Below are positions 3,715-36,601 of a DNA stretch of 64,000 bases, piece by piece; within the stretch, counting starts at the first letter, position 1, and each line of letters starts with the position of its first letter. The DNA is from Dehalobacter sp. DCA (GTDB lineage: Bacteria; Bacillota; Desulfitobacteriia; Desulfitobacteriales; Syntrophobotulaceae). The notes below the pieces were generated by a model. It was not told the DNA's origin, ran no database searches, and was given only the letters and a program-made list of their open reading frames with translations. The position numbers were made by a program, and so were the translations under genes. The stretch spans positions 1,178,001 through 1,242,000 of the forward strand of contig NC_018866.1 of NCBI RefSeq assembly GCF_000305775.1, written 5' to 3'.

Positions 3715-4887
3715 TTAATAAATACCATACTCCATGACAAACTTGTTTACGGCGATGATGTTTTCCACCTTGCCGTCAGCTGCCGAAAGAAGTTCCTTAT
3801 CGGTTGAGAAAATATATCCTCCGCCAGGAGCCAGATCATCCAATAATTCTTTCGCTTTGGTAATACATTCTTCCTTCGTGCCATATTGTAACAACGTTAA
3901 CGGAAAAAGACCTAGTATGCACATGGTATTTCCAAGCTTCTGTTTAAGTTCTTTAGAATCGCCGTGTTCGAACCATCCCAGTGTTTTCTTGGCAGGCAGA
4001 TCTTGAAGATGATCATAGTAGCGTGACCAATCTCCTTCATAGAATGGCATTGGAATTACTCCATTAGCCACGAAGGCCTCGATAATCGTTTTAAACATAG
4101 GCCAGTAAAATTTATCAAAATCTGCTGTTTTAAGCATAGTAGGTAAATGTAAAGGAAGTAGGATGATTTTGGGGTTTGCTTTCGGTGGTGTTGAAAACAT
4201 CTGACCCATTCCAAACCTTATTACTAACGGAGTAAGTGCCTGCGCAGCCTCAAGCAATTCTTCAGGCCGACGACGCATATCCATAAATGCGCCTTTAATA
4301 CCCCGGAAGAAATCGGCAATCCAATCTAATGGCATTATTGCTAAACCATCAAATAGCATAGGTATTCCATACTGGGTTATTAGATTAGCCTCTGCAGCGC
4401 CCTTTTTCGCTCCATACATACCAAATTGCATAGCGCCTTTTGCTAGTGCTAAATCCTTTGCAGGTGATTCTTTTGCCAATTCCGAATATTTCCGCGGCAA
4501 AACTTTTTCCACCATGAACCTAAATGGGTCTTTAATAAATTCAGGATATTCTTCGCTAGTCATTACTTCCGCATTCTCATCTGAATATTGAACAATGTTG
4601 CTTTCATTCAAATAATGAAAAGATTTACTGCCCAAAGCCTGATACATGCCACCGGGTCTGGCGTAAAACATGTGCAAGACGTCCATCGGTATGTCGTTAA
4701 CTACTTTTAGAAGAGACTTACTGCATTTATCCAAATCCCAGTTGGATTCGGAGTCAGTGTACCCTGCATAGTAGGAAGACCATGTTCCAAGAGCGGAAGA
4801 GATCGGAACTCGATCCGGTTGTTCTAGATTAATGGCTTTGTAAACTCTTTCTACACGTTTTTGGTAAAGGTTCATTATTTCACTCAT
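3715..4887 (-). CDS. URO-D-fold corrinoid methyltransferase (MtaA/MtbA-like)
   Basis: A 390-residue protein of the uroporphyrinogen decarboxylase superfamily, the branch that moves methyl groups between a substrate or cofactor and a corrinoid protein. Seen: family N terminus KRVERVYKAINLEQPDRVPI (residues about 9-28), and a C-terminal barrel part with PGGGYIFSTD near 356-365. True heme decarboxylases are shorter and not paired with a corrinoid protein. It starts four bases after the corrinoid protein stop, so the genes are translationally linked. The methyl donor cannot be read from sequence; O-methyl or N-methyl compounds are the usual candidates. The ATG at 4887 is preferred because GGTGGG lies seven bases before it. 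Confidence 0.85.
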   Translation of the reverse strand: MSEIMNLYQKRVERVYKAINLEQPDRVPISSALGTWSSYYAGYTDSESNWDLDKCSKSLLKVVNDIPMDVLHMFYARPGGMYQALGSKSFHYLNESNIVQYSDENAEVMTSEEYPEFIKDPFRFMVEKVLPRKYSELAKESPAKDLALAKGAMQFGMYGAKKGAAEANLITQYGIPMLFDGLAIMPLDWIADFFRGIKGAFMDMRRRPEELLEAAQALTPLVIRFGMGQMFSTPPKANPKIILLPLHLPTMLKTADFDKFYWPMFKTIIEAFVANGVIPMPFYEGDWSRYYDHLQDLPAKKTLGWFEHGDSKELKQKLGNTMCILGLFPLTLLQYGTKEECITKAKELLDDLAPGGGYIFSTDKELLSAADGKVENIIAVNKFVMEYGIY

Positions 4888-4890
4888 CAA

Positions 4891-5529
4891 TCAACCCACC
4901 CATCTTTGGCATATTTTGACCCCTTCAGCTGCGTTTGTCGAAAAGGCGTCCGCCCCTATGCTTTGACATACATTCTCATTAACGGGTACTCCGCCGATAA
5001 TCACCTTGACTGAATTTCTAAGGCCCGCATTGTTCAGTCCATCAACCGTTTCTTTCATACTATCCAGCGCTAAAGTCAGTACGCCGCTTAAGCCTACGAT
5101 ATCAGGGTTAACCTCTTTAACCTTGTCCACGATCTGGCTAACCGGAACATTGATCCCCAGGTCGATCACCTCGAAATTTGCGGCTTCAACCATGGATCTG
5201 AAAATATTTTTGCCGATATCATGAAGATCTCCGAAAACGGTAGCCAGGACAATCATTCCGCCTTTTGCTGAAGATCCTGCACTTAAAACCGGTTTGAGCT
5301 TGTCCATTACGTTTTGCAAAACTTCCCCGGCGAAGACCAGGTCTCCGATAAAGTACTCGCCCGAATCATAGCGTTCACCTACGAGCGTCATACCTTGCTG
5401 ACAGGCTTTAACAACTTCTTGAACTTCGGCGGCGTTGTCGTCTTTGCTTAGCACTTCATCAATCGCCTTGTTTAACACGTCTTCGTCCAAATCGGACATC
5501 GCTTGAATCAGGGCTTTCAAATCCATCAC
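4891..5529 (-). CDS. Corrinoid (B12-binding) methyl-carrier protein, operon 1
   Basis: A 212-residue protein of the MtaC/MtbC type. An N-terminal helical cap (residues about 1-85) carries methyl; the C-terminal Rossmann domain binds cobalamin. Seen: the base-off/His-on motif DLHDIGKN (D-x-H-x-x-G, about residues 102-109), then GLSGVLTLALDS and VIIGGVPVN. His in that motif is the lower cobalt ligand. It is the first gene of operon 1, ahead of the URO-D methyltransferase. Start may be this GTG or the ATG at 5526; a GGAGG lies 10 or 13 bases upstream respectively. Similar proteins are encoded at 22393, 24988 and 33854. Confidence 0.92.
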   Translation of the reverse strand: MMDLKALIQAMSDLDEDVLNKAIDEVLSKDDNAAEVQEVVKACQQGMTLVGERYDSGEYFIGDLVFAGEVLQNVMDKLKPVLSAGSSAKGGMIVLATVFGDLHDIGKNIFRSMVEAANFEVIDLGINVPVSQIVDKVKEVNPDIVGLSGVLTLALDSMKETVDGLNNAGLRNSVKVIIGGVPVNENVCQSIGADAFSTNAAEGVKICQRWVG

Positions 5530-6849: not shown

Positions 6850-8028
6850 CTACTCGTTTTTATTCATCGGCATTTGGTGCTGGGTAACTTTCTCAGGTAA
6901 GTGCACGAGTTTTCCGAGTCTACGCCTGATTTTAGCGCAAATATCCAGAAAAGCACCTACTGGACAGAAGCAATCGCACCAGAACCGATAGATAAAGATG
7001 GACCCCGTCATAATCACAAGCAATAATAGCCAATTAAGAAAAGTCCCTGTAAGCCCAAACAACGTGCCAAATGGTTCATAACTACCAATAGCCGGGTTCC
7101 GGTACAGGAAAGTTAAAAGTAAGCCAGACCATAACAGTATCTTAGGCAATAATTTCAGGAGCTGATTAGATACCCTTCGGCACTTGCTGCGACCTCTTAC
7201 CATACTTGTTAATTCTTGTACTCCCCCGAAAGGACACAGCCAGTAACAGTATAGGTTGCGTCCTGAAAAAAGAGCGATTCCTAAACCACCTAGTACGATT
7301 ACATACCAAATCATATTACTGTGTATAGAAGGCCAATACCCCATCAATAATGCCGAGATAGAGGATAAGGAAATCTGGATTTTAAGCCAGAATCCAAAGA
7401 TAATGACTGCAGCAAGTAAAGTAATATACCGCATTTTGGACTTTTTCCACACCAAGCTTAGGACCCATACGGCTAAAAGCAGAATGATCGCGCTTGCTTC
7501 CGCTAACCCAAACTTCCAGGATTCCGGCTTTTCCGATATGCTTAGACCAAGTTGATTGACTGCCACTTCGTGACTTCCCTGTCGTACAGCATTGGCGATA
7601 GCCCTGGAACTTACCGTGGCCCCGGTGACGTAATCAATGTCAGCACCCAGTTCAATCGGATCATTTGCTTTTATGTTCTTAAACTGATCCAGAAATTTTG
7701 CCTTTAAGACTTTGTTCAAAAAACTAGGCGTCTCTCTGCTCTCCACAACCACAACCTGTTGGATCTCCCCCAGCGGATCAATTACTGCAGCTACCTTCAT
7801 TGGCCCGCCGTAACCATTGGCCTCTCCAAATACGACATAATAATGTTCCTTGCCGTTGCTTTGATCCGTTTTAAAAGTTGGAGGGTTGTTACTTATTTTT
7901 TCAAAGTTTGTTTGCGGCAAAATCTGTTTCATGTAAAGGAGTTCATCCTTCTCTGCTGCCATATTGGAATATGCCAAAGCCCCAATCAATATAGCAACCG
8001 CAACAACTATCATTATGCGTTTTAACAT
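6850..8028 (-). CDS. rdhC: RdhC, NosR-like membrane flavoprotein (cluster 2)
   Basis: A 392-residue NosR/PceC-type protein. After a signal-like helix (residues about 3-22) comes an outside FMN-binding domain with the flavinylation motif VTGATVSSR (about 132-140), whose Thr is the expected site of covalent FMN attached by ApbE. Five or so membrane helices follow, with two Cys motifs, CYWLCPFG (about 258-265) and CDCFCPVG (about 350-357), typical of the polyferredoxin-like loops of NosR. Proposed role in the family: electron transfer from menaquinol to RdhA. A GC-rich hairpin separates it from rdhA. A paralog is at 39696. Start is supported by TGGAGGAAGC. Confidence 0.9.
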   Translation of the reverse strand: MLKRIMIVVAVAILIGALAYSNMAAEKDELLYMKQILPQTNFEKISNNPPTFKTDQSNGKEHYYVVFGEANGYGGPMKVAAVIDPLGEIQQVVVVESRETPSFLNKVLKAKFLDQFKNIKANDPIELGADIDYVTGATVSSRAIANAVRQGSHEVAVNQLGLSISEKPESWKFGLAEASAIILLLAVWVLSLVWKKSKMRYITLLAAVIIFGFWLKIQISLSSISALLMGYWPSIHSNMIWYVIVLGGLGIALFSGRNLYCYWLCPFGGVQELTSMVRGRSKCRRVSNQLLKLLPKILLWSGLLLTFLYRNPAIGSYEPFGTLFGLTGTFLNWLLLLVIMTGSIFIYRFWCDCFCPVGAFLDICAKIRRRLGKLVHLPEKVTQHQMPMNKNE

Positions 8029-8101
8029 TACTGCTTCCTCCAGAAGTGTGACTAATAACTAGGCTGACAAATGAAGTAAATAAGAAACCTAATAATGATA
8101 T

Positions 8102-8125
8102 GCCGACTCCCGCTTGGGAGCCGGC
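8102..8125 (-). repeat. GC-rich hairpin between rdhA-2 and rdhC-2
   Basis: GCCGACTCCC pairs with GGGAGCCGGC (one G-T pair) around a four-base loop, in the 116-base gap between rdhA and rdhC. Without a T-run it is more likely a processing or attenuation stem that lowers rdhC expression than a full stop. A similar stem lies before rdhC of cluster 4. Confidence 0.6.
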
Positions 8126-8144
8126 AATTCTTTTGTAGTTCTAC

Positions 8145-9539
8145 TTACTTCCTTGGAAAGAATTTATTAGGATCCTGTGCCCACCAGCTTGCCACATCTT
8201 TGGGTTCTGAATAGCCTAACATTTTTTCCATCTTGACAAGCGTGGATCCTAGCGTCGGTGCCAAATGCGCTGCTAACTTATGCATTTCAGTTTTGGGTTT
8301 ATTGTACGGACAATAATGAACACAGTTACCACAAGCACTTATGTTATGATCATCCCAATAGGCTTTGCATTTACAAGCATCAATCGGCCACTTTTTAACA
8401 CCAGAATTTGTAGTGGAATATACGGCTTCGGCAGTACGATTATTATCCTTGGGAATAGACCCGGAAGGACAGTTATCAGCGCAAACCGCACAGGTCTCGC
8501 AGAACTTGGTCACTCCCATATCTATAGGTTTATCCGGCTGGATAGGCATGTCGGTGATAACACCACAAATACGCAGACGAGGTCCAAAGTCCGGGTTGAT
8601 AAGCAGACCATTCCGTCCCATTTCCCCCAGCCCTGCATCGACAGCCATCGGAATTCCCAAGCCTGGTCCATAACTGCCAAATGGCCAAGCACGGTAACCC
8701 ATATAATTAATAAAGAGGGCCAAGTGCATAATCAAGAATTTATCAAAGCTGTATGCCCGATACGTTTCAGCTACTTCAACACAGGAAAGGGTACGCTGGT
8801 AGGCCTCGTAGTCCATTTCAATACCACAGACGATAACGTTATTCATCTCTTGAGGCAATTCATCATCTACATTCGGCAGTTGTAATTTCTTTCTTTCTTC
8901 GGGTGTCATCACCGGCCCCAACAGGCCTTTTTCAAGACCAAACACTTTTGTAAACAAGTCTTTGGCATCCGTCTTCCAATTCTCAACGTGATACCTGTGA
9001 CTGTAAAGCCAATTCCGATTAAGCTTACAGGTTCCCACAACGCTTGCGCCGAAATGTTTAGCGGCCATTTTCACAGTCTGGGCTGCTTCTTCCGGAGTCG
9101 TCTTGTATGGTTGTGTTAATCCCGGAGGCAGTTCTGGCTCCCACAGGTGCGACGCAGCAAAGCTACCAACTTTAAACATCAACGCGGAACTCATAAATAA
9201 TGATAGATCGCGATGATCAAACCCAGGTTTTGGTGTCCCGGTAGCAATATTTTTTAAAGTATCATGAAAGGCTGTCATCCCTTGTGGGCCAAACATATAA
9301 AACGACTGGCTTTCATCCCAATACCCGCGGGAATGAGCGTTATTTCTATTATCAAATCGCCCGACTTCACCTTCAACCTCATAAGGCGGTTTATCCACTC
9401 TGGGGTATTCCAGCGCACTCGCAGCACCGTCTCCAAGTAATTTCTCTCTTGCTCCGGGCGTAAGTGTCAATATACTGGTCAGGGCTCCAGTCAGTGCAGT
9501 ACTTTTCAGAAAGGACCTTCTGCTAAGTTTCTTAGACAT
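8145..9539 (-). CDS. rdhA: RdhA, reductive dehalogenase (cluster 2)
   Basis: A 464-residue RdhA. Seen: twin-arginine leader LSRRSFLKSTAL (RR near residues 6-7), the family block GLGEMGRNGLLINPDFGPRL in the corrinoid-binding half, Fe-S motif CETCAVCADNCPSG, and a second motif with CKCKAYW then CGNCVHYCPYNKP near the C terminus. The first residue pair of the second motif is unusual, CKC, giving an extra Cys. It starts directly after rdhB-2 (stop 9541), so the two are tightly linked. Downstream are a hairpin, rdhC and a small membrane gene, making this one of the two clusters with an electron-transfer partner. Substrate unknown. Confidence 0.93.
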   Translation of the reverse strand: MSKKLSRRSFLKSTALTGALTSILTLTPGAREKLLGDGAASALEYPRVDKPPYEVEGEVGRFDNRNNAHSRGYWDESQSFYMFGPQGMTAFHDTLKNIATGTPKPGFDHRDLSLFMSSALMFKVGSFAASHLWEPELPPGLTQPYKTTPEEAAQTVKMAAKHFGASVVGTCKLNRNWLYSHRYHVENWKTDAKDLFTKVFGLEKGLLGPVMTPEERKKLQLPNVDDELPQEMNNVIVCGIEMDYEAYQRTLSCVEVAETYRAYSFDKFLIMHLALFINYMGYRAWPFGSYGPGLGIPMAVDAGLGEMGRNGLLINPDFGPRLRICGVITDMPIQPDKPIDMGVTKFCETCAVCADNCPSGSIPKDNNRTAEAVYSTTNSGVKKWPIDACKCKAYWDDHNISACGNCVHYCPYNKPKTEMHKLAAHLAPTLGSTLVKMEKMLGYSEPKDVASWWAQDPNKFFPRK

Positions 9540-20454: not shown

Positions 20455-21258
20455 CTATTTTTTCTTAAACTCGTTTTTAGAAGCTACTGTATACTTCCTG
20501 CAGAATTTATCTTTGCCAAGCAAAAGATTTGTGGCAAACATTGATTCGATGAGATTTGTATCCGATGGATTAACCACCGCGCTATCCATTCCTGCAGCCA
20601 CCGCCAGTGTCAAAAAAGTCCTGTTAATCAGACTTCTGTTAGGGAGTCCATAGGAAATGTTGCTTAAGCCTCCAGTAATATGAGCCTCAGGATAAGTTGC
20701 ATGGATCGTCCTTATGCAATCGAATACAACGTTCCCCGCCTTCTGGTCAGTGGCTATTGACATGATCAGCGGGTCAATGTAGATTTTGCTGTCCTCTATA
20801 CCCATTGCCCGAGTGGCCGCAAAAATATTCTCCAGCACATGCATCCTTTCTTCAATTGATTTGGGCATGCCAGACATTGATTCATCCATAGACAGCGCAA
20901 TTACAGGACAGTTCCTTTCTTTTATGAAGGGTAAAAAATCATCGAGTCTTTTCTTATCTCCATTGATGGAATTAATCATTGGGGTGGACTTAACCACTTT
21001 CAATGCTTCTTTTATCGCTGATGGAGTTGAACTATCAATACATATGGGCGTATCCGTTACAGCCTGAACAGTTTCTATTAGCCAGATAATATCGTCCGTT
21101 TCTCTTTCAGGATCTGTTCCCGCATTGATATCCAGAAAATCTGCGCCCGATTCAGCTTGGGAAAGTGCAATGCTCTGTATATAGCTTGCATCTCTGCTTA
21201 TAATTGCTTCTTTGATAATTTTTCTTGTGCCGTTTATTTTTTCACCAATGAATATCAT
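20455..21258 (-). CDS. Methyltetrahydrofolate:corrinoid methyltransferase (MeTr, pterin-binding)
   Basis: A 267-residue TIM-barrel of the pterin-binding family (dihydropteroate synthase/MeTr). Seen: FIGEKINGTRK (residues about 3-13), GADFLDINAGT (about 38-48), ICIDSSTPSAI (about 71-81), NSINGDKKR (about 96-104) and ITGGLSNISYGLP (about 194-206). These fit the MeTr branch that transfers methyl between a corrinoid protein and tetrahydrofolate rather than folate synthesis. It is last in the operon with a URO-D methyltransferase and a corrinoid protein, so it likely moves the methyl group from the corrinoid to tetrahydrofolate, feeding the Wood-Ljungdahl pathway. Gap to the previous gene is ten bases. 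Confidence 0.92.
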   Translation of the reverse strand: MIFIGEKINGTRKIIKEAIISRDASYIQSIALSQAESGADFLDINAGTDPERETDDIIWLIETVQAVTDTPICIDSSTPSAIKEALKVVKSTPMINSINGDKKRLDDFLPFIKERNCPVIALSMDESMSGMPKSIEERMHVLENIFAATRAMGIEDSKIYIDPLIMSIATDQKAGNVVFDCIRTIHATYPEAHITGGLSNISYGLPNRSLINRTFLTLAVAAGMDSAVVNPSDTNLIESMFATNLLLGKDKFCRKYTVASKNEFKKK

Positions 21259-21268
21259 ACTTAACTCC

Positions 21269-22396
21269 TTACTTGTATTCTTTAGCTGCTTTAAACATGG
21301 CTACCATATTCTCAAATTTGGCATTTGCAGGAGCGTCGCAACCAGGTGTTATAAACAATCCTTTGTATCCAATATCATCTATCAGATCCGTGACATATTT
21401 ATAGACTGTTTCCGGTGTTCCAGTTGCAAGCAATTGCGACGGTACATCTCCCATAAGTGCAACGTGATCCCCCAATACTTTTCTGGCATTTCTCATGTCA
21501 GTCATTCCGTCGAGGTTCAGGATACTCATTTTTTCGGGAATTTCTAGGAACCTCTCTATATCTCTATCCCAGTTCTGGTCTAAGTGAAAACATGGGGTAA
21601 ATCCATTTTCTACCAGAGCCATACCCATCTCTTTCATATATGGCCATACAAGATTGTTCCATATTTTTGGAGATACAAGTGCACTTGCTCCTCTCCATCC
21701 GCCTACCCAGCAAGCTTTTCCGTGAGTTGCTTTCATTATATTCAACATATCTCCAATGATTGCGGGCATCATGGCATCCTGGGCAGCTTTAACTTTATCC
21801 GGCATTTTATAGCAATCCATAAAAAACTGGTTCATTGACCTACCGCCACAGAGTATCTCAAAAGGAGGACTGAAGGCTGCTGTATTTACGGAAGGATAAC
21901 CTGCCGATATATGTTTTTCTGCATTGATTTGTCCAAACTTCTGCGAATAGTCCATAAATTCTCCCAATTCACTCATATCAAGAACTTTTGGCAATATTTT
22001 CTGCTGCAGAGCTGGATATCCTTTATCTAATATCAGATCGTAATCCTCATTCTCCATTACTTTCTTCTCAGAAACCTGCCATAAGGAGTTTTCCGGAAGT
22101 TCTCTCCCTGGCATGTTTATTTTAGACAGCCATAAAGTCGACAGGATGACGTTAATAAATCCGCCACCAGACATATTGAGACAATCTATTGGAGCAAGCT
22201 CGTTAATTTCGTTGATGTATGCGATCGTTGTTTCAACATTTTTGTCAGGATTATTAGCAAACTCTGCCATGGTAATACCCATATGTCCGGCAGGTGTCGC
22301 TCCGCCTGCATAGCATGTAGTAGGGCTGTCATTTTTAAAATTTATGGTCTTTTCTATCTTTTCATTTCTCTCTAAAAACAGCTTACTTGGCATCAT
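21269..22396 (-). CDS. URO-D-fold corrinoid methyltransferase, operon 2
   Basis: A 375-residue URO-D superfamily methyltransferase. Seen: N-terminal ATPAGHMGITMAEFA, the middle block FSPPFEILCGGRSMNQF, a Trp-Gly-Gly loop (ACWVGGWRGAS), CFHLDQNWDRD with His and Asp that may hold a metal or substrate, and C-terminal LFITPGCDAPANAKFEN. His and Cys residues of this kind (HLDQNW and TPGCD) are typical metal-binding positions in this methyltransferase branch. Its ATG overlaps the stop of the upstream corrinoid gene by four bases. Likely the substrate:corrinoid transferase of the operon. It is distant from the copies at 3715 and 32769, so different methyl donors are expected. Confidence 0.88.
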   Translation of the reverse strand: MMPSKLFLERNEKIEKTINFKNDSPTTCYAGGATPAGHMGITMAEFANNPDKNVETTIAYINEINELAPIDCLNMSGGGFINVILSTLWLSKINMPGRELPENSLWQVSEKKVMENEDYDLILDKGYPALQQKILPKVLDMSELGEFMDYSQKFGQINAEKHISAGYPSVNTAAFSPPFEILCGGRSMNQFFMDCYKMPDKVKAAQDAMMPAIIGDMLNIMKATHGKACWVGGWRGASALVSPKIWNNLVWPYMKEMGMALVENGFTPCFHLDQNWDRDIERFLEIPEKMSILNLDGMTDMRNARKVLGDHVALMGDVPSQLLATGTPETVYKYVTDLIDDIGYKGLFITPGCDAPANAKFENMVAMFKAAKEYK

Positions 22397-23019
22397 AATC
22401 CCATCAGCTCCTTACATACCGTGACTGCATCCTGTGCGTCCTTGCCAAATCTATCTGCTCCGCAGTATTCTACCACACCTTGGTCAACCGGACCGCCGCC
22501 GATCATGATTTTGACTTTGTCTCTAAGCCCTGCTTCTGTTACCGCATCAACAGTTTCTTTAATAGCATCGTAGCTGGTTGTCAGAAGACAAGAAAGTCCC
22601 AAGACGGTTACATCCGGGTTTTCCTTCAGTGCGCTTAGAAATACCTCAGGGCTAGCATCCACTCCCACATCGATAACCTCGAAATTTCCAGCACTAAGCA
22701 TAGCTACTACAAGGTCTTTGCCAATATCGTGAATATCTCCTAATACTGTCCCCACGATAACCTTTCCTGCGCTCTCTCCGCTTTGACCCTTGAGATAGGG
22801 AGCTATCAGCTCGCCGGCTTCTTTGAAGATAGCTCCTGACATCATAAGATCTGACACAAAGAAATCACCACTTGCGAACTTGTTTCCCACTTCTATCATT
22901 CCTGCTTGACATTCTTTTAGAATATTCAGCGGACTTACACCGCTCTCCAGCTGTTTCTGAACTTCTGCCATTAGATTGTCGTCTTCAAGATTTGCTAGCA
23001 TTTGTGCGATACTGTTCAT
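22393..23019 (-). CDS. Corrinoid methyl-carrier protein, operon 2
   Basis: A 208-residue MtaC/MtbC-type protein: helical cap (residues about 1-85, with ASGDFFVSDLMMSG), then the B12 domain with TVLGDIHDIGKDLV (D-x-H-x-x-G near 100), GLSCLLTTSYDAIKETV and IMIGGGPVDQG. The conserved His would coordinate cobalt. It is directly coupled to the URO-D methyltransferase gene (four-base overlap). GGAGGTTTTGAA precedes the ATG. The separate corrinoid gene at 24988 lies upstream in the same block, so this region encodes two carriers. Confidence 0.93.
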   Translation of the reverse strand: MNSIAQMLANLEDDNLMAEVQKQLESGVSPLNILKECQAGMIEVGNKFASGDFFVSDLMMSGAIFKEAGELIAPYLKGQSGESAGKVIVGTVLGDIHDIGKDLVVAMLSAGNFEVIDVGVDASPEVFLSALKENPDVTVLGLSCLLTTSYDAIKETVDAVTEAGLRDKVKIMIGGGPVDQGVVEYCGADRFGKDAQDAVTVCKELMGL

Positions 23020-23097
23020 TTCAAAACCTCCATCTTTCTTTTGTTAGATTTATGATTAACTCCCGAGAGTTAATACCATTTACTAATGGTGAAGAGA

Positions 23098-23529
23098 TTA
23101 ATTGTCATGGACATGTCCATTGTACTGACTATGCTCTTTATGGCTTTCTAGTTTTACATCGTAACCGATCAGAAACTGTTTTCTACATTTATCACATATT
23201 TGATCCAACGTCCGAATTGAGGTTTCCTCATCGACATTGTGAACAATAGAGTTTATTATCAGCTTTATTTCGTTGTATGTTCCGTCGCCCGAGCACTCGG
23301 AGTTTACGGGGATATCTTTTCTATATATGCTCAGCTTTATATAATCCTTTTCCCCGCCTGTGAAAATAGCTTTGATATGTCCAATAAAAACGTCATCATT
23401 TTTTGATAATTCTTGAGCATACTTTTCAATTATGTAGCTAGTAATATCTGTCCATCTTTTCACAATTGTTGGGTCCGGCAATTTTAGTTCTAAGATAAAT
23501 GTAATAGGATTGAATTCATTCTGATACAT
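23098..23529 (-). CDS. Hypothetical protein with His-rich tail, partner of the G3E GTPase
   Basis: A 143-residue protein I cannot place. Seen: a mixed alpha/beta pattern with TFILELKLPDPTIVKRW near the start, a CDKCRKQF Cys pair near residue 110-117, and a His-rich end (SHKEHSQYNGHVHDN). The Cys pair and terminal His suggest metal binding. It begins nine bases after the G3E GTPase gene stop. Proteins of the CobW/COG0523 group often have a separate C-terminal domain with His-rich loops; this gene may supply that part in trans, since the neighbour lacks it. That is inference from size and place. Confidence 0.6.
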   Translation of the reverse strand: MYQNEFNPITFILELKLPDPTIVKRWTDITSYIIEKYAQELSKNDDVFIGHIKAIFTGGEKDYIKLSIYRKDIPVNSECSGDGTYNEIKLIINSIVHNVDEETSIRTLDQICDKCRKQFLIGYDVKLESHKEHSQYNGHVHDN

Positions 23530-23538
23530 GCAAACCCC

Positions 23539-24138
23539 TCAATTCCTCAAAATATTGTCTATTTTTTCTTTAAGTTGTGGATTTATGTAGACACTCTCAT
23601 AAATTGTGATCACAGGACAAGTTGCATTCTGTTCCTTCAGAACCTCATAAGCAGCTTTTACAACCTGCTCATCTACAAGTTCAAGCTTATTTATCAGAAT
23701 AAAATCCGCTTTCTCAATGCTAGCGAAAAGGAGCGGTCCCAATACTGTAAGGAACATATCGAGCCTGGTTAGATCAAATATAAAAAAATCAGAGATTTGT
23801 TTTCTGTCAATTCCGAGATTGCTTAGTGAATTTATTGTTATTCCAGGGTCTGCAGCGCCACTGGGTTCGATTACAATAACATCCGGATTATAGACTTCAA
23901 GTTGCTTCAGAGTGGATTCCAGACCAGATGCCATAGTACAGCATATACAGCCGCCAAAAATTTCCCATACATTGTATCCAAGCTGCTTCATGTATCTGTT
24001 GTCTATCCCTATTTCTCCCACTTCATTGATGATTAGCGCAACTTTTATATTTTTTGATGAAAGATACTCTATCAGTTCTTTAATAAATGTAGTTTTTCCT
24101 GAACCGAGAAATCCAGAAGTTAAAAAAATCTTGCTCAC
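23539..24138 (-). CDS. G3E-family GTPase (CobW/HypB/UreG type)
   Basis: A 199-residue P-loop GTPase. Seen: GFLGSGKTTF (Walker A, residues about 8-17), the metal-binding GGCICC loop (C-x-C-C, near 62-67) diagnostic of COG0523/CobW proteins, VIVIEPSGAADPG (Walker B region) and ILINKLELVD, which fits the base-recognition NKxD box. The C-terminal CobW_C domain is missing, making it about half the usual length. The GTG start is chosen because GAGGTG lies seven bases upstream. Members act as metal or cofactor chaperones for B12 enzymes, hydrogenase or urease. In an operon with corrinoid proteins it likely helps load or reactivate a corrinoid. A near-copy of the GntR operator lies 14 bases upstream of the GTG. 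Confidence 0.85.
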   Translation of the reverse strand: MSKIFLTSGFLGSGKTTFIKELIEYLSSKNIKVALIINEVGEIGIDNRYMKQLGYNVWEIFGGCICCTMASGLESTLKQLEVYNPDVIVIEPSGAADPGITINSLSNLGIDRKQISDFFIFDLTRLDMFLTVLGPLLFASIEKADFILINKLELVDEQVVKAAYEVLKEQNATCPVITIYESVYINPQLKEKIDNILRN

Positions 24139-24151
24139 GACACACCTCATT

Positions 24152-24173: not shown

Positions 24174-24230
24174 TGTATGTATAATATATTCCCTATATTT
24201 AATCATGTCAATATAAAATTTAATGCCTTT

Positions 24231-24257
24231 GCAATAAAAAAAAAGCCCCTCGGGCTT
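24231..24257 (-). terminator. Intrinsic terminator after the GntR gene
   Basis: On the minus strand the stem AAGCCC / GGGCTT with a three-base loop is followed by a run of nine T. It overlaps the last codon of the GntR gene, so the corrinoid-GntR transcript ends here and the GTPase operon needs its own promoter. Confidence 0.85.
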
Positions 24258-24981
24258 AAAATATTTTTCTGCTGTCATCCTCCTCAGGAGTCGCTGCTTT
24301 TATTGAATAGTATTGTTTTTTTATATAAAACCTATTGATATTAAGTATCTGATTTGTATCTCTCTTTATTATCTTCTTATTGATTAAAAAAATGGCATCT
24401 CCTGGTTGAGTTTCCAGGCATTTTGCTACATTTAGAGGAGCTGCAATAACGTTGATTTCAAGTTCCTTTCTGATGCTAAAGGCCAATTTTGATTCTAAAG
24501 CTTTGGAATAATTGGCAAAGTTGAGTATATCTTCAACAACAGGCTTCTTCGATATATACGGTGAGATAACAATTTCAAGCGCTATTGGTTTGTGCTCGCA
24601 AAAAGACAGCCTCTCAAGAACAACCACCTGATCGCCTGACTTCATACCAAATTCGTATCTTGTCTCCGGGTCAGGCTCTTCCACTCTTACTGAAATCAGC
24701 TTGATTTCATCAGTTTCACAGGCAAGGGAATCAAAATCGCTAAATCGAAGCTGAAAAATATCGATTTCAGGCTTTCTGACAAAGTTACCTTTTCCGGGAA
24801 CAGAGTATATATATCCTTCGTTTGAGAGCAGCGAAAGGCTTTTCCTGATCGTCATTCTGCTGACAGAATACTCTTTCATCATTTCAGATTCAGATTTTAG
24901 CATATCACCTGGTATTATCAAACCTTCCATTATTTTCTTTTTAATTTCCTCAACAATCGTTAAATAAAGTACATTCGTCAT
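24256..24981 (-). CDS. GntR/HutC-family transcriptional regulator
   Basis: A 241-residue regulator. Winged helix at residues about 5-70 with GDMLKSESEMMKEYSVSRMT (recognition helix SRMTIRKSLSLL) and EGYIYSVPGKGNFVRK in the wing. The C-terminal UTRA-type ligand domain (about 90-230) has VVVLERLSFCEHKPIALE. HutC-type regulators usually bind a small ligand and release DNA. It follows the corrinoid gene at 24988 by six bases, is ended by its own terminator, and two near-identical 22-base palindromes flank the pair. So it probably controls both operons. The ligand could be the methylated substrate of the operon. Confidence 0.9.
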   Translation of the reverse strand: MTNVLYLTIVEEIKKKIMEGLIIPGDMLKSESEMMKEYSVSRMTIRKSLSLLSNEGYIYSVPGKGNFVRKPEIDIFQLRFSDFDSLACETDEIKLISVRVEEPDPETRYEFGMKSGDQVVVLERLSFCEHKPIALEIVISPYISKKPVVEDILNFANYSKALESKLAFSIRKELEINVIAAPLNVAKCLETQPGDAIFLINKKIIKRDTNQILNINRFYIKKQYYSIKAATPEEDDSRKIF

Positions 24982-24987
24982 AATCCT

Positions 24988-25638
24988 CTACCTTACGTCC
25001 ATTTCCTTAATCCAATTTTCACATATATGAAGTCCTTCGTAAGCGTCATTGGTAGTAGCATCTGCATTACCAATGCGGTAACATTTCTTATTTATTACAG
25101 CTCCACCCACAATTATCTTAAGTGAATCTCTATGTCCCGACTTCTCTATTGCTTTAATTGTTTCAAATATATAATTGATCGATGTAGTCAGCACACAGCT
25201 GATACCCACAATATGTGGTTTAAATGCTATAATTGCCTCCACATATTTTTCCGGCCTTACATCGACTCCTAAATCCATAACTTTAAAACCTTCTGCAGTC
25301 AACATTTCAATCATGATGTCCTTGCCAATATCATGGATATCTTCAGATACAGTCCCCATAAGGATTCGTCCTTTATATGTAGTGTATTTATTTGTATTGT
25401 ATGTTTTCATCTCGTCAATTGACAAGACCTCTTTCATTAACATCCCGGATACAATAAGATCTCCAATAAAGGATTCTCCCGCCTCGTATTTCTTGCCGAT
25501 TTCATATAATCCGTCCAGCATAGACTGATAGATTTCTTTCGGGGATACACCTTCATTAAGCATTTTCTTAACTTCGGCCTCAGCTTTATCAACATTCAGT
25601 TCGCTGACATATTCGACAAGATTATTTCTCAAAAACAT
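24988..25638 (-). CDS. Corrinoid methyl-carrier protein, upstream copy
   Basis: A 216-residue corrinoid protein: helical cap (residues about 1-95, with YEAGESFIGDLIVSGML) and a B12 domain with VSEDIHDIGKDIM (D-x-H-x-x-G near 111-116), GISCVLTTSINYIF and IIVGGAVINKKC. It departs from the usual GTVxGDIHDIG with GTVSEDIHDIG. The start is placed at ATG; GTG three bases earlier is part of the GGGGGGTG site and TTG six bases later has better spacing, so the first residues are uncertain. A perfect 22-base palindrome lies nine bases upstream. It forms a two-gene unit with GntR. Confidence 0.9.
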   Translation of the reverse strand: MFLRNNLVEYVSELNVDKAEAEVKKMLNEGVSPKEIYQSMLDGLYEIGKKYEAGESFIGDLIVSGMLMKEVLSIDEMKTYNTNKYTTYKGRILMGTVSEDIHDIGKDIMIEMLTAEGFKVMDLGVDVRPEKYVEAIIAFKPHIVGISCVLTTSINYIFETIKAIEKSGHRDSLKIIVGGAVINKKCYRIGNADATTNDAYEGLHICENWIKEMDVR

Positions 25639-25646
25639 CACCCCCC

Positions 25647-25668
25647 TACGTACATGTACATGTACGTA
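25647..25668. promoter_or_regulatory. Perfect 22-base palindrome, GntR operator
   Basis: Half-site TACGTACATGT followed by its exact reverse complement. It sits nine bases before the corrinoid gene start, overlapping where the transcript begins, so a bound dimer would block transcription. A similar site lies at 24152. Confidence 0.7.
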
Positions 25669-32056: not shown

Positions 32057-32833
32057 ATGGAAATAAAACAATTAAAAACATTTTCCGCAGTAGCAAAAAC
32101 AGGAAGCTTCAGCAATGCTTCTGAACTTCTTGGATATGCACAGCCAACTGTTACTACTCATATTAAGCTATTAGAAGATGAGCTTAAATTAAAACTATTT
32201 GAAAGACTTGGGCATAAAATCAAACTTACTGAAGAAGGAAAGCAATTACTCTATTATGCCGAAAATATAATAAAGTTTTCGTCTGAAGCTTTATCTTCTT
32301 TTTCCGAAAAAAATACAAAAATTGGTAAAATCACAATCGGGGCAAACGAATCCTTTAGCGTTGTACGTCTACCTATTATATTAAAAAATTTCATTCAAAA
32401 ATACCCCAATGCTGAAGTAAATTTAAAATTTGGATCAGTAAAAGAAATTTATGAAGCATTGCATAACAACGAAGCTGATATTGCTTTTTTCCTGACACGC
32501 GAAGTAAGTTACTCAGACCTTGTTGTTGAGACATTGATTGAAGAAGATATTGTTGCGGTTGTTCCTCCCAACCACCCTCTAACTTTGAAATCTTCAGTTA
32601 GTATTCTTGATTTTGAAAATCAAGATTTAATCATTACACAAGAAAACTGTACTTATCGGGCAATGATTCAGGAATTATTAAGTGAAAGAAATATTCATCC
32701 CCACTCTATAATAGGAATAAATAATATTTATGCTATAAAACAGCTTGTAATGAGTGGTCTTGGAATTGCTATTTTACCGCGTATTTCAGTAGAACAGGAA
32801 ATTGCCCAAAAGCTTCTGGATACAGCCCTTTGA
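32057..32833 (+). CDS. LysR-family regulator, probably C-terminally truncated
   Basis: A 258-residue LysR protein. Winged helix at residues about 1-60 (KQLKTFSAVAKTGSFSNASE, QPTVTTHIKLLEDEL), then the ligand domain with KITIGANESF, EADIAFFLT, and MSGLGIAILPRISVEQEI. LysR proteins are usually near 290-300 residues, and here the text ends about 30-40 residues early, right where it overlaps the end of the convergent methyltransferase by 65 bases. AAGGAGTGATGAACT precedes the ATG. It likely once controlled the divergent HAD gene. Whether the truncated form folds is uncertain. Confidence 0.8.
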   Translation: MEIKQLKTFSAVAKTGSFSNASELLGYAQPTVTTHIKLLEDELKLKLFERLGHKIKLTEEGKQLLYYAENIIKFSSEALSSFSEKNTKIGKITIGANESFSVVRLPIILKNFIQKYPNAEVNLKFGSVKEIYEALHNNEADIAFFLTREVSYSDLVVETLIEEDIVAVVPPNHPLTLKSSVSILDFENQDLIITQENCTYRAMIQELLSERNIHPHSIIGINNIYAIKQLVMSGLGIAILPRISVEQEIAQKLLDTAL

Positions 32834-33848
32834 TATATTCCTTGACTCGATTTTCAATTATTTCCGGTGTCCCTTCTTTAAACAACTCTGTATGGACTCC
32901 CACGGCATAAGCCTTATGAAAAGTATTAGCAAGCTCGCGGAAAGTCTTCAGATCCCTGCTGGGTCCTTGCTGAGGATCAGGGTCAAGATTTGTCATGATA
33001 TATGTTCCTGTTGAAGCCTGGCGGGCCAAAAACCTTGTCCAATCATCACCAAGAAGGTGCAAGCCCCAATAATAGTGCATAAATGGCAAAGGACTGGCAC
33101 TTTGAATCATTCTGGCCAGATACGGTGTGTCGAATTCCCAAAGCTGCTCCGGCCTAAAGTTGGGCACGCTGTTCCAAGCTGCAATAGATGTAATCCCATG
33201 AATCCCGGTTTCTTTAAAAGCCTGAGCAAACTTTATGGCTGCCTGGGTACATGCCTCAACCACTCTGTGCATTAAAAGAGGCTTTGTTTTCATCCATTTA
33301 ACGGCCAGAGGGTATCCCAAGATTTGTACGGCCACCGGGAGAGGCTGCATCGGCGTGGCAATTACTGCATACTCACCTTTTGTCTTTTTCACGAGCTGCT
33401 TAAACAGTTCCAGTCTGACCGGCATACGCCCTTCGGTACGTCCGTCCAAAGCTGCCACTTTTTCTTCCAGTTCTTCAACATCACGTTCACAGGTTATTGC
33501 TTCTTTAACAATTTGAGGGTTTGAATCTTTGGGTCTCTTTAAAGTACACCCTAGGATTTCAGCCTCGACAACGGTCGTTTCAATCCCTGGAAATACTACG
33601 TCATAGTCGAATTCTTCAAAAAATTTCACTATCGCATCCGAATGCTTTTCGGGATCTGCGGCCGCTTCACTGCAGGAGTAACCATACCGGTTGACAATCC
33701 ATTCCGTGAACAAAAATCCTGTCGGTATCCTATCGGCATGTTCTTGGAACACCGTCAGAATGATCCTCTCAATGTGCTGCAGTTTCTGGCCCTTGTCCCT
33801 TTTGCCAATGATGTTTTTTACCATTTCTATTTGCTCTTTACTGGCCAT
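32769..33848 (-). CDS. URO-D-fold corrinoid methyltransferase, operon 3
   Basis: A 359-residue URO-D superfamily protein. Seen: RIPTGFLFTEWIVNRYGYS (residues about 40-58), DYDVVFPGIETTVVEAEILG, PFMHYYWGLHLLGDDW (His-rich loop near 255-270), and LDPDPQQGPSRDLKTFRELA near 290-310. It follows the corrinoid gene by five bases. The C-terminal end lies in the overlap with the truncated LysR gene and may itself be altered by a rearrangement. It differs strongly from the copies at 3715 and 21269, and is the branch often paired with O-demethylation or methylamine-type modules. Donor not determinable. Confidence 0.85.
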   Translation of the reverse strand: MASKEQIEMVKNIIGKRDKGQKLQHIERIILTVFQEHADRIPTGFLFTEWIVNRYGYSCSEAAADPEKHSDAIVKFFEEFDYDVVFPGIETTVVEAEILGCTLKRPKDSNPQIVKEAITCERDVEELEEKVAALDGRTEGRMPVRLELFKQLVKKTKGEYAVIATPMQPLPVAVQILGYPLAVKWMKTKPLLMHRVVEACTQAAIKFAQAFKETGIHGITSIAAWNSVPNFRPEQLWEFDTPYLARMIQSASPLPFMHYYWGLHLLGDDWTRFLARQASTGTYIMTNLDPDPQQGPSRDLKTFRELANTFHKAYAVGVHTELFKEGTPEIIENRVKEYIKGLYPEAFGQFPVLLKYAVK

Positions 33849-33853
33849 ATTAA

Positions 33854-34498
33854 TTATTCACCACCTATCAATCTTTTTGCTTCGCGTATGGCTCCATCAG
33901 CGTCCTCAGCATATCCGTCGCCACCGATCCGTTGAACATATTGTGGGAATACAGCTACTCCTCCCATAAGCACTTTCACTTTGTCCCGCAGAGATTCTTT
34001 GACCAGCAGGTCCATTGTGTCTTCAATCCCTTTTAGGGTGGTGGACATGTAAGAACCAAGGCCTAAAATCTCCGGTTGTTCCTTTTTTACCGCTTCAATA
34101 AACGTATCAGCTGGAACATCTACTCCCAAGTCTATTACTTCAAAACCATCTGCCCTTAATAGCGCGGCAATGATATTCTTACCGATGTCGTGGACATCTC
34201 CTTCAACGCTACCAATTACTACTTTTCCGATAGATTTAGGAGAAGCATCACCCGTCATATAAGGAATGAGTATCTGTACGCCGGCATTCATTGCCTCACC
34301 AGCCATCATTAGCTCAGGGAGAAAATATTCACCTGTCGCAAATTTCCGACCTGCTTCTCTGGCTCCCGGTGACATTCCATTGATTATTTCTGTTGGAGTT
34401 AATCCTGCTTCAATCCCTTGACTCACCAATTCTTTGGTTAGATCATCATTACCGTTCGAAACTGCTTCAGTTAGCTGTTCTAAAATTTTTTTGCTCAT
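33854..34498 (-). CDS. Corrinoid methyl-carrier protein, operon 3
   Basis: A 214-residue MtaC/MtbC-type protein: helical cap (residues about 1-85, ATGEYFLPELMMAGEAMN), B12 domain with GSVEGDVHDIGKNII (D-x-H-x-x-G near 104-109), GLGSYMSTTLKGIED and VLMGGVAVFPQ. The usual Ser-Gly-Leu text of the second loop is altered to GLGSYM. It is first in the pair with the URO-D enzyme. A 365-base gap upstream leads to the PocR-type kinase; the gap holds the shifted C-terminal end of that kinase and otherwise nothing I can name. Confidence 0.92.
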   Translation of the reverse strand: MSKKILEQLTEAVSNGNDDLTKELVSQGIEAGLTPTEIINGMSPGAREAGRKFATGEYFLPELMMAGEAMNAGVQILIPYMTGDASPKSIGKVVIGSVEGDVHDIGKNIIAALLRADGFEVIDLGVDVPADTFIEAVKKEQPEILGLGSYMSTTLKGIEDTMDLLVKESLRDKVKVLMGGVAVFPQYVQRIGGDGYAEDADGAIREAKRLIGGE

Positions 34499-34863: not shown

Positions 34864-36093
34864 TTAGTACCTTTGATATCCCTGCAATCCATATGCCTCG
34901 CCAAACGACCGTCTCAATCTTTGATGGATATTTTCCAGACTGGAACCAGGGCAATGGCACCAGTGATCACTTTCGGTAAAACGTCGAGTTTCAATACCTA
35001 TTCCGTCATCAATGACATTGACTAACAAACGATTTCCCTGGATATCCTCATCAACCTTTATTAATAGGCGGTGTTTGCCGGGGACCGATTCGAACCCATG
35101 TTTGAATGCATTGTCTACCAGTGGTTGTAAAGTATAAGGAAGAATTTTCACGTTTAGATGTTCTTTTTTTACTATGATTCTTACGTTAATCCGGTTTCCA
35201 AACCTTAACTGTTGGATGCTCAAGTAAGAACTTATATGATCTAATTCCGTTTTCAAAAAGACCATTTCGATATTTCCCTCGATACCGTAACGGGCCACAT
35301 CCGCTAAAGCAAAAACAGCTCTCTCAGTCTCAACTGCTCCTTCGGCAAACGCCAATCGGGCGATTACATTTAAGGCGTTAAAAAGGAAATGCGGGTTCAT
35401 TTTGGCCTGCAGTTCCCTTAGTTCTGCATGTTTCAGCATCAACTGGTACTCAGTAATTTCTTTTTCCAGATTGCCTGTTTTTTGGATTTCTCGAAGCAGA
35501 CGCTCTTGATAGGACATCAATTCTTGTTGATAACGGGAAAGACTTTCGGAAACTGTAAGATAATTAGCCAAGGTAGAAATTAATCTTGCAACGGCTGTAA
35601 ACCGATCACCAGAAATCTTAGGGATAGTACTCAAATGTTTTAAATAATTCTCGTGTGGTCCATCTGTCCCTCCGGGCAAAGATTCCGCTTCCATGAGCTG
35701 AACTGGCCCGGTAATTAAACATCCTAAAAGAACATCATCTCGGGAATATAGAGGAGCAGAAATTAGAGTGAGACCGCAATGTCCTTTATAGACCTTGGAA
35801 CTTTCATTGTTATAACTATTTTTCAAACCCGTTTCAAAACAGTATAAACATTGAAAGAAATGCTTTTTATTAGCAAAATAGGACTGGCACCAATTAGGGA
35901 AAGACCCTAATGGGGGAGATATGGGAACTGCTCTGTTATCAATGAAGACAATATTAATCGCTAAGACATTAAAAAACATATTATTAATTTCTTGCATTGT
36001 TTCTCGTGTAATAATCTCAGCTAAGTGGTATGTCCTGTCAATAATGGTACTTATTCTATTAATCGCCTTTGCTTTATCGTTGCTTTGCGCCAC
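34864..36093 (-). CDS. PocR-type cytosolic sensor histidine kinase, frameshifted near its end
   Basis: A 409-residue kinase. Residues about 20-190 form a PocR ligand domain (CQSYFANKKHFFQCLYCFE, YKGHCGLTLISAPLY, LLGCLITGPVQL). Then a coiled coil (about 195-235), a LytS-type His region LQAKMNPHFLFNALNVIARL and an ATP-binding domain with LVDNAFKHG and VNVIDDGIGI. The frame ends after YGLQ, but a one-base shift near 34890 opens RDIKGTKVTLIMPLVIGN, the expected last strand, to a stop at 34827. No response regulator lies nearby. PocR domains bind small hydrocarbon derivatives; here it probably senses a methylated substrate for operon 3. The GTG at 36093 has GGGGG seven bases upstream. Confidence 0.82.
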   Translation of the reverse strand: MAQSNDKAKAINRISTIIDRTYHLAEIITRETMQEINNMFFNVLAINIVFIDNRAVPISPPLGSFPNWCQSYFANKKHFFQCLYCFETGLKNSYNNESSKVYKGHCGLTLISAPLYSRDDVLLGCLITGPVQLMEAESLPGGTDGPHENYLKHLSTIPKISGDRFTAVARLISTLANYLTVSESLSRYQQELMSYQERLLREIQKTGNLEKEITEYQLMLKHAELRELQAKMNPHFLFNALNVIARLAFAEGAVETERAVFALADVARYGIEGNIEMVFLKTELDHISSYLSIQQLRFGNRINVRIIVKKEHLNVKILPYTLQPLVDNAFKHGFESVPGKHRLLIKVDEDIQGNRLLVNVIDDGIGIETRRFTESDHWCHCPGSSLENIHQRLRRSFGEAYGLQGYQRY

Positions 36094-36601
36094 TACCATT
36101 CCCCCTTAGCAATTCTAGTTATATTATTAGTAGTAGTTATGCAGTTCTAGGATAATACTCCCAACTCCATAACCTTAGTTACAAAGATCGTGGCCAAAAT
36201 TTATCAATAAGCCTTGAAAAATGCTCGGTTGCCGTGTCGAAATAGACTTGGATCAACTGCTCGCAACAGTGGATCAGAATCAAACATTTATTTCACCTTC
36301 TTTTCGTATCGTATACTTGCATTATTCTCTACAAAACCGAGGATCGATCCTCTACCTTTAGGATAAAGTTCCAAGATTTCAGTAGGAAACAAAAATAATT
36401 TTCAATCTAGAAGTCGGAAGAAACATTAAGCAGCATAGTAATTTCTTTAAAACCTCCTTTTTATTAGTGGACTGGTTTAAGTGTATATTTTAAAGAAATA
36501 TATTTCTGTAAAGTATTTTACAAAAAAAAGAGCTGTCTTTGGTAAGACACTCCTTCTGAAATATAACTTAATTTATATCCAGTTTTTATAAATTCCTTTT
36601 A
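36094..36601. other. Intergenic region with no recognised gene
   Basis: About 500 bases upstream of the PocR kinase, AT-rich. It should contain the kinase promoter. I see no open frame of interest, no strong repeat and no terminator apart from weak T-runs. Confidence 0.4.

Follow-up and report, generated by a model that had tools for sequence, protein, structure and literature searches.

Introduction

Known COG0523 proteins bind zinc or cobalt at a CxCC motif, and their C-terminal domain is thought to recognize the client protein (PMC7689651). One group of them, 'subfamily 13', was reported by Haas et al. in 2009 beside corrinoid methyltransferases in Methanosarcina, Clostridium botulinum and Desulfitobacterium hafniense, and the account given there of this subfamily lists mtaA/mtaB/mtaC, ram genes and, in Desulfitobacterium hafniense, MeTr (methyltetrahydrofolate:corrinoid protein methyltransferase) as neighbors and remarks that MtaA and MtaB are zinc-dependent (PMC2770081). 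That is, the linkage of COG0523 proteins to corrinoid methyltransferases is already known, having been published in 2009 (PMC2770081). Here, we describe a gene pair from Dehalobacter sp. DCA, the proposed type strain of 'Candidatus Dehalobacter alkaniphilus' (PMC11578063), which lies in a corrinoid methyltransferase operon within a 64-kb stretch of DNA (G000:C1:1178001-1242000; hereafter, the window) of a single-contig genome of 3,069,953 bp. The pair encodes a half-length COG0523/G3E GTPase and a protein of 143 amino acids (aa), and we consider it fairly probable that the two polypeptides make up a COG0523-type metallochaperone for the metal site, probably zinc, of the URO-D superfamily methyltransferases.

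Like the window GTPase, members of subfamily 13 are COG0523 GTPases co-localized with corrinoid-dependent methyltransferases, whereas the published description of that subfamily, as far as the account of it in that survey extends, gives neither a split form nor a partner of the kind found here, which we call the GHIK protein after its motif (PMC2770081). One-piece proteins with a CobW_C domain (e.g., YjiA, CobW and ZigA) have the same G-domain motifs, the CxCC motif and, in some genomes, a position beside URO-D genes, but the window GTPase has no C-terminal domain and is followed by the separate GHIK protein, in which a histidine stands where the R-x-K of CobW_C has its arginine. The nickel systems UreG/UreE and HypB likewise combine a short G3E GTPase with a separate or His-rich metal carrier; they differ from the present pair in that our partner protein has no family-level match, the window GTPase carries a CxCC motif, and the operon is a different one. 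Finally, RamA/RACo proteins are also accessory genes of corrinoid methyltransferase operons, but neither protein of the pair has a RACo domain and both systems occur side by side. The split form and its partner family appear to be undescribed, no description of them having been found in the literature searched.

Results

The GTPase gene (23539..24150, minus strand) lies 9 nucleotides (nt) upstream of the gene for the 143-aa protein (23098..23529, minus strand). A first-pass annotation of the window had started the GTPase at 24138, which is indeed an in-frame GTG but lies four codons inside a likelier ATG (24150) that is shared with the orthologue at locus L006. The predicted protein of 203 aa matches PF02492 along its length (E 7.2e-33), with no other match of relevance, aligns to YjiA residues 6-186 and has orthologues that are 75% and 53% identical to it. 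Its P-loop G-domain contains the Walker A motif GFLGSGKT, the ExxG motif as EPSG and the NKxD-like motif as NKLE, all as in COG0523 proteins, together with the CxCC motif GGCICC (residues 66-71, at 23938-23955). The CobW_C domain (PF07683) is present in most, though not all, COG0523 members; it had no match in the GTPase, in its partner or genome-wide at E 1e-3, and the RACo domain (PF14574) had none in the GTPase or the partner. Hence, as the first-pass annotation had read it, the protein is, judged by its sequence, a COG0523-type half and not a complete COG0523 protein. All three half-length COG0523 GTPases of this genome are paired in the same way, and all three pairs lie inside corrinoid methyltransferase operons.

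Pfam gave the 143-aa partner nothing above threshold (DUF6565 matched weakly, E 0.03), NCBIfam gave no match and the PDB no convincing sequence match, and a plasmid search with this protein returned nothing; accordingly, its identification as a known enzyme was rejected, the Pfam, NCBIfam and PDB sequence searches having given nothing convincing. The motif GHIK is encoded at 23371-23382, and His51 and Lys53 as well as Ser67 are invariant in all 40 family members assembled below, every one of which contains [GP]H[ILV]K. The CDKC pair and the His-containing C-terminal tail (HKEHSQYNGHVHDN) noticed in the first pass are both present; the former is not conserved in the family, being missing in the G003 orthologue, and the latter is variable yet recurrent. 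With at least 5 His in 20 aa counted as His-rich, 13/37 partners from split loci have such a stretch at either the N- or the C-terminus, compared to 13/450 background open reading frames and 0/37 GTPases. At locus L019 (G000:C1 about 2459000), a GHIK gene without a His-rich tail is directly followed by a gene (8006-8305) whose 99-aa product weakly matches DUF1292 and contains the His/Cys-rich insert HHHEGKDCSCHEKGHTH, perhaps a metal store as a separate gene. At L095 (7742-8878; G388), the GHIK protein carries at its C-terminus a fused DUF2284 domain ('predicted metal-binding'; PF10050, E 1e-47).

To assemble the family, we searched 398 genomes from the phylum with a first profile, built from the initial GHIK members; a rebuilt profile of ten sequences, including two fusions, was then run against 82 genomes from the class and 397 from the phylum. 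Both searches together with earlier finds gave 40 loci, the neighbors of which were annotated by profile; genome-wide counts derive from family searches. Three of these loci, from three genomes, encode GTPase-GHIK fusions of 364-374 aa and the other 37 are split. The first-pass annotation had proposed looking for fixed adjacency in other genomes, and it was found throughout: a half-length GTPase is encoded directly upstream on the same strand in 37/37 split loci, in addition to the three fusions, with a gap of at most 100 nt in 34 of the 37 and an overlap in the remaining three because the mechanical open reading frame start was set too far upstream. The motif is GCxCC in 34 of the 37 paired GTPases and GGCxCG in two, the last sequence being cut off at a contig end. 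In the GTPase tree (a quick one with long branches), one-piece CobW_C proteins formed a clade of their own (SH-aLRT 97), and the split form thus did not arise by a recent break of one of these proteins. The fused proteins (L025, L026 and L121; a PHLK variant) stand in unrelated neighborhoods, L025 beside radical-SAM genes and a SAM-dependent methyltransferase-like gene and the two others beside other genes.

Within ~8 kb of the pair, URO-D genes were found at 31/40 loci, corrinoid protein genes at 31/40, MeTr genes at 19/40 and RACo genes at 11/40, and at least one of the first two at 33/40; 20 arbitrarily placed control loci of the same genomes had a corrinoid gene nearby in two cases and URO-D, MeTr or RACo genes in none. 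In nine loci, RACo is the next recognized gene upstream of the GTPase. Full-length CobW_C COG0523 proteins of the same class, used as another control, were also often near corrinoid methyltransferases, and proximity to URO-D is therefore a property of the wider group and not of the split form alone. One solo pair (L104/L272, G436:C1:1405000-1422000) lies among genes of purine/selenium-linked catabolism (SsnA, 8-oxoguanine deaminase, YgeY), in a cluster that contains no corrinoid gene; these three families are metal users as a rule.

In two cases, a one-piece COG0523 protein takes the place of the split pair beside homologous URO-Ds. Homologous URO-Ds in G100 (L023) and G006 (L269), 55% identical over 450 aa and with the same C-terminal extension, are followed on the 3' side by the split pair in the former genome and by a one-piece COG0523 protein in the latter (325 aa, with a RIKG C-terminal domain; PF07683 E 0.005, below its cut-off). 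A second such replacement is seen between L020 (split pair) and L241 (one-piece COG0523 protein with a His-rich linker), where the URO-Ds are 51% identical; at L020, in the third Dehalobacter operon, a DUF1638 protein (PF07796; 6694-7401) is encoded directly 3' of the pair. Judging by the fusions and the two replacements, the GHIK protein sits at the position otherwise taken by CobW_C. An AlphaFold model of the 143-aa protein, built from two sequences, predicts a ferredoxin-like alpha/beta fold (pLDDT 73.6, pTM 0.71). Lacking a match to PF07683, the GHIK protein is, by sequence, not a CobW_C member, and an attempted profile proof that it is one gave only weak in-register similarity. Nonetheless, the fusions, the replacements, the predicted fold and this weak profile similarity suggest that GHIK stands in for the C-terminal domain of COG0523 proteins.

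The URO-Ds of seven genomes were aligned by column to the zinc enzyme 4ay7, an MtaA-type enzyme whose zinc ligands we take to be His, Cys and Cys, and a URO-D was counted as linked when within 8 kb of a pair. The window URO-D has His271 (21584-21586), Asp273 (21578-21580) and Cys353 (21338-21340) at the MtaA-type positions, i.e., H-x-D...C as opposed to the H-x-C...C of the MtaA type. The first position is His and the second either C or D in all 13 linked URO-Ds, compared to about 30/58 unlinked URO-Ds with the MtaA His (Fisher p = 0.001), and in four Dehalobacter genomes the MtaA-type His is found in 8/8 linked vs. 2/18 unlinked URO-Ds (p = 3e-5), these counts covering all but a few of the URO-D genes in G004 and G005. 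The two unlinked exceptions, in G003 and G004, each adjoin a truncated GTPase. At these places (G003:C1:2333698-2335239, L270 5699-7258; and G004:C13:212163-213731, L271 5164-6714), a URO-D of the pair-linked type stands next to a GTPase remnant with an open frame of 119 and 109 aa, respectively, the P-loop half of which is gone; no GHIK gene was found beside either remnant, and the two loci are apparently decayed pairs of two Dehalobacter genomes.

The unlinked type of URO-D in these Dehalobacter genomes has F-E-K/R or similar at the metal-site positions, and two URO-Ds of this type in the window's genome are close to reductive-dehalogenase-like genes. The F-E-K/R URO-D and corrinoid gene pairs close to such genes (window 3715-5529, G000:C1:1181715-1183529; and L273 3107-7464, where one URO-D copy is apparently interrupted by an inserted gene of 598 aa) are probably RdhV/RdhU homologues; RdhV and RdhU have been described in D. 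hafniense, with RdhV as a UroD-family protein (PMC9888536). CdmB, a chloromethane methyltransferase of the URO-D superfamily, has a structure without zinc and an activity that EDTA leaves unchanged (PMC13222342), and its residues at the three aligned positions are S/Q/F, without His or Cys.

The genes around the pair follow each other on the minus strand in the order corrinoid protein, GntR regulator, GTPase, 143-aa protein, corrinoid protein, URO-D and MeTr, and the genes for the GTPase, the 143-aa protein and the corrinoid protein after it are where the first-pass annotation had put them. Downstream of the pair are an MtxC-type corrinoid-binding protein (22393..23019; PF02310 and PF02607), the URO-D methyltransferase (21269..22396; PF01208 E 1.3e-17) and MeTr (20455..21258; NCBIfam NF005719, 334.5 bits vs. 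a cut-off of 259), and upstream are a GntR/UTRA regulator (24256..24981; PF00392 and PF07702), whose position is kept in L006 and G003, and, at a likewise conserved position upstream of it, a second corrinoid protein (24988..25641; PF02310 and PF02607). A promoter-like site, TTGACA-17-TATATT (24183..24211, minus strand; 11/12 consensus), lies 33 nt ahead of the GTPase start, and a terminator-like hairpin with a T run (24243..24257, minus strand) lies between the GntR gene and the GTPase; together they suggest that the methyltransferase transcript begins with the GTPase gene, although promoter-like sites in the region were as frequent as expected by chance (21 found vs. 21.0 in shuffles), and the site is thus no more than suggestive. 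The perfect palindrome TACGTACATGTACATGTACGTA (25647..25668, no strand assigned) upstream of the operon is a possible operator of the GntR regulator. An Rfam scan of the region gave no match. Elsewhere in the window, a second URO-D/corrinoid cluster (32769-34498) has a gene for a PocR-domain histidine kinase upstream (34864-36099); its URO-D ends early, without the C-terminal Cys region, and its end overlaps an opposite-strand LysR gene, so it may be degraded.

Discussion

The adjacency of the two genes, the partner family, the fusions, the replacements and the association with the metal-site type are all established by the sequences compared here. Pair linkage tracks which type of metal site the URO-D has, pointing to metalation of the methyltransferase. 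In the mechanism that we favor, the half-length GTPase would bind a divalent metal at CxCC in a GTP-dependent manner, the GHIK protein would substitute for the client-recognizing C-terminal domain that an ordinary COG0523 protein carries (many GHIK proteins would also hold a His-rich metal store), and the two would load this metal, most likely Zn(II), into the MtaA-type H-x-[C/D]...C site of the URO-D with which they share an operon. From the gene arrangements and alignments described above, we infer that the two proteins form a physical complex and that GTP gates the transfer, and likewise which metal is carried and which protein receives it.

Several observations weigh against this mechanism. 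The 40 loci include several close relatives and do not represent 40 independent events, and seven of them have neither a URO-D nor a corrinoid gene nearby. The third ligand column is C in only 5/13 linked URO-Ds. The GHIK model retrieved generic ferredoxin-like matches with Foldseek, with YjiA among tied rows (E 0.03-0.04) and McrD also present alongside many unrelated proteins, and hhalign comparisons of GHIK with 20 CobW_C domains were weak (P about 0.004-0.01, probability 4-8%); the register was sensible, with the GHIK stretch aligned to the R-x-K-G stretch of CobW_C, and shuffles were not used as support since 1/60 column-shuffled controls of the wider profile scored spuriously high. Finally, G006, G347 and G388 encode about 20 H-x-D URO-Ds of another subtype with no pair nearby. 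That is, the metal-site His alone does not predict a pair, and the rule is one-directional: linked URO-Ds keep the His, but not every URO-D with it is linked. A pair might serve these enzymes in trans.

Alternatively, the pair might be a chaperone that supplies the corrinoid protein with cobalt or corrinoid and gates this loading as MeaB does for methylmalonyl-CoA mutase or CobW for cobaltochelatase, which is close to the undescribed two-part corrinoid chaperone proposed in the first pass. Corrinoid protein genes are within 8 kb at 31/40 loci, as noted above, in the window the corrinoid gene directly follows those for the GTPase and its partner, and CobW is known to handle Co(II) and MeaB to gate B12 loading (PMC7689651). 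However, only six of the 11 short corrinoid proteins in the window's genome (a count that excludes two long proteins, probably MetH) sit in the three pair operons, and the five outside them work, if at all, without a pair in their own cluster. Further, linkage varies with the URO-D metal-site type even though both types accompany corrinoid proteins; at L097 and L119 the pair adjoins a URO-D, but the stretch examined contains no corrinoid gene; L104 lacks any corrinoid gene; and the MeaB family (PF03308) score of the window protein is far below its cut-off (12.0 vs. 23.1 bits). The unpaired corrinoid proteins of the same genome and the solo pair of the purine cluster thus make a corrinoid-specific loader less likely and, together with the RACo genes found elsewhere, favor a metal role over a corrinoid role, which we regard as rather improbable. 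Hence, of the first-pass proposal, the two-part system with fixed adjacency and a partner of no known family is supported and the corrinoid role is not; neither of the ways in which it was expected to fail (the partner being a known enzyme, or the genes being unlinked elsewhere) materialized.

A metal role could also be less specific than the one we favor, with the pair being a general zinc-homeostasis chaperone that rides in methyltransferase operons as an insurance against low zinc and serves several enzymes. The solo pairs and the purine-cluster pair would fit such a role, and COG0523 subgroups have been tied to zinc starvation (PMC2770081). Yet the promoter-like site would put the pair first in the methyltransferase transcript, and the Dehalobacter genome retains three separate pairs, one per operon, and we therefore regard this possibility as improbable. 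Another reading takes GHIK as an independent, UreE-like metal carrier or as an adaptor to another partner (e.g., RACo), with the GTPase acting alone like UreG, which the same survey, where it deals with UreG, presents as a short G3E GTPase with separate accessory proteins (PMC2770081). The weak sequence similarity between GHIK and CobW_C would be in line with this arrangement, but the fusions and the two one-piece replacements locate GHIK at the CobW_C place, and clearly His-rich members amount to only about a third of the family, and we regard this reading as improbable too. Reductive activation requires a redox centre, e.g., the Fe-S cluster of RACo. GTP-driven reactivation of Co(II) corrinoid in place of RamA/RACo, also raised in the first pass from the absence of RamA, is highly improbable and was rejected: this absence is true of the window and its operon but says nothing about the genome, which holds three intact RACo (PF14574) genes and a fragment elsewhere, RACo often stands directly beside the pair in other genomes (nine of the 11 loci that have it), and neither protein shows a redox centre by family search.

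Returning to the metallochaperone for the URO-D metal site, its generalization would be that the family with the signature [GP]H[ILV]K...S, together with a half-length G3E GTPase, is dedicated to the metal site of corrinoid-dependent URO-Ds, such that these systems would need a metal-loading factor besides a RamA-type reactivase; we regard this broader statement as evenly balanced between being right and wrong. If it is true, a gene pair of many anaerobic methyl-group users, including dehalogenating bacteria of use in bioremediation, would gain a named function that can be tested, and there would be an explanation for why some URO-D methyltransferases may stay unmetalated when made in other hosts. 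How a COG0523 protein finds its client, a question still open, would also be illuminated, since the client-facing part would here be a separate protein whose gene neighbors hint at the target.

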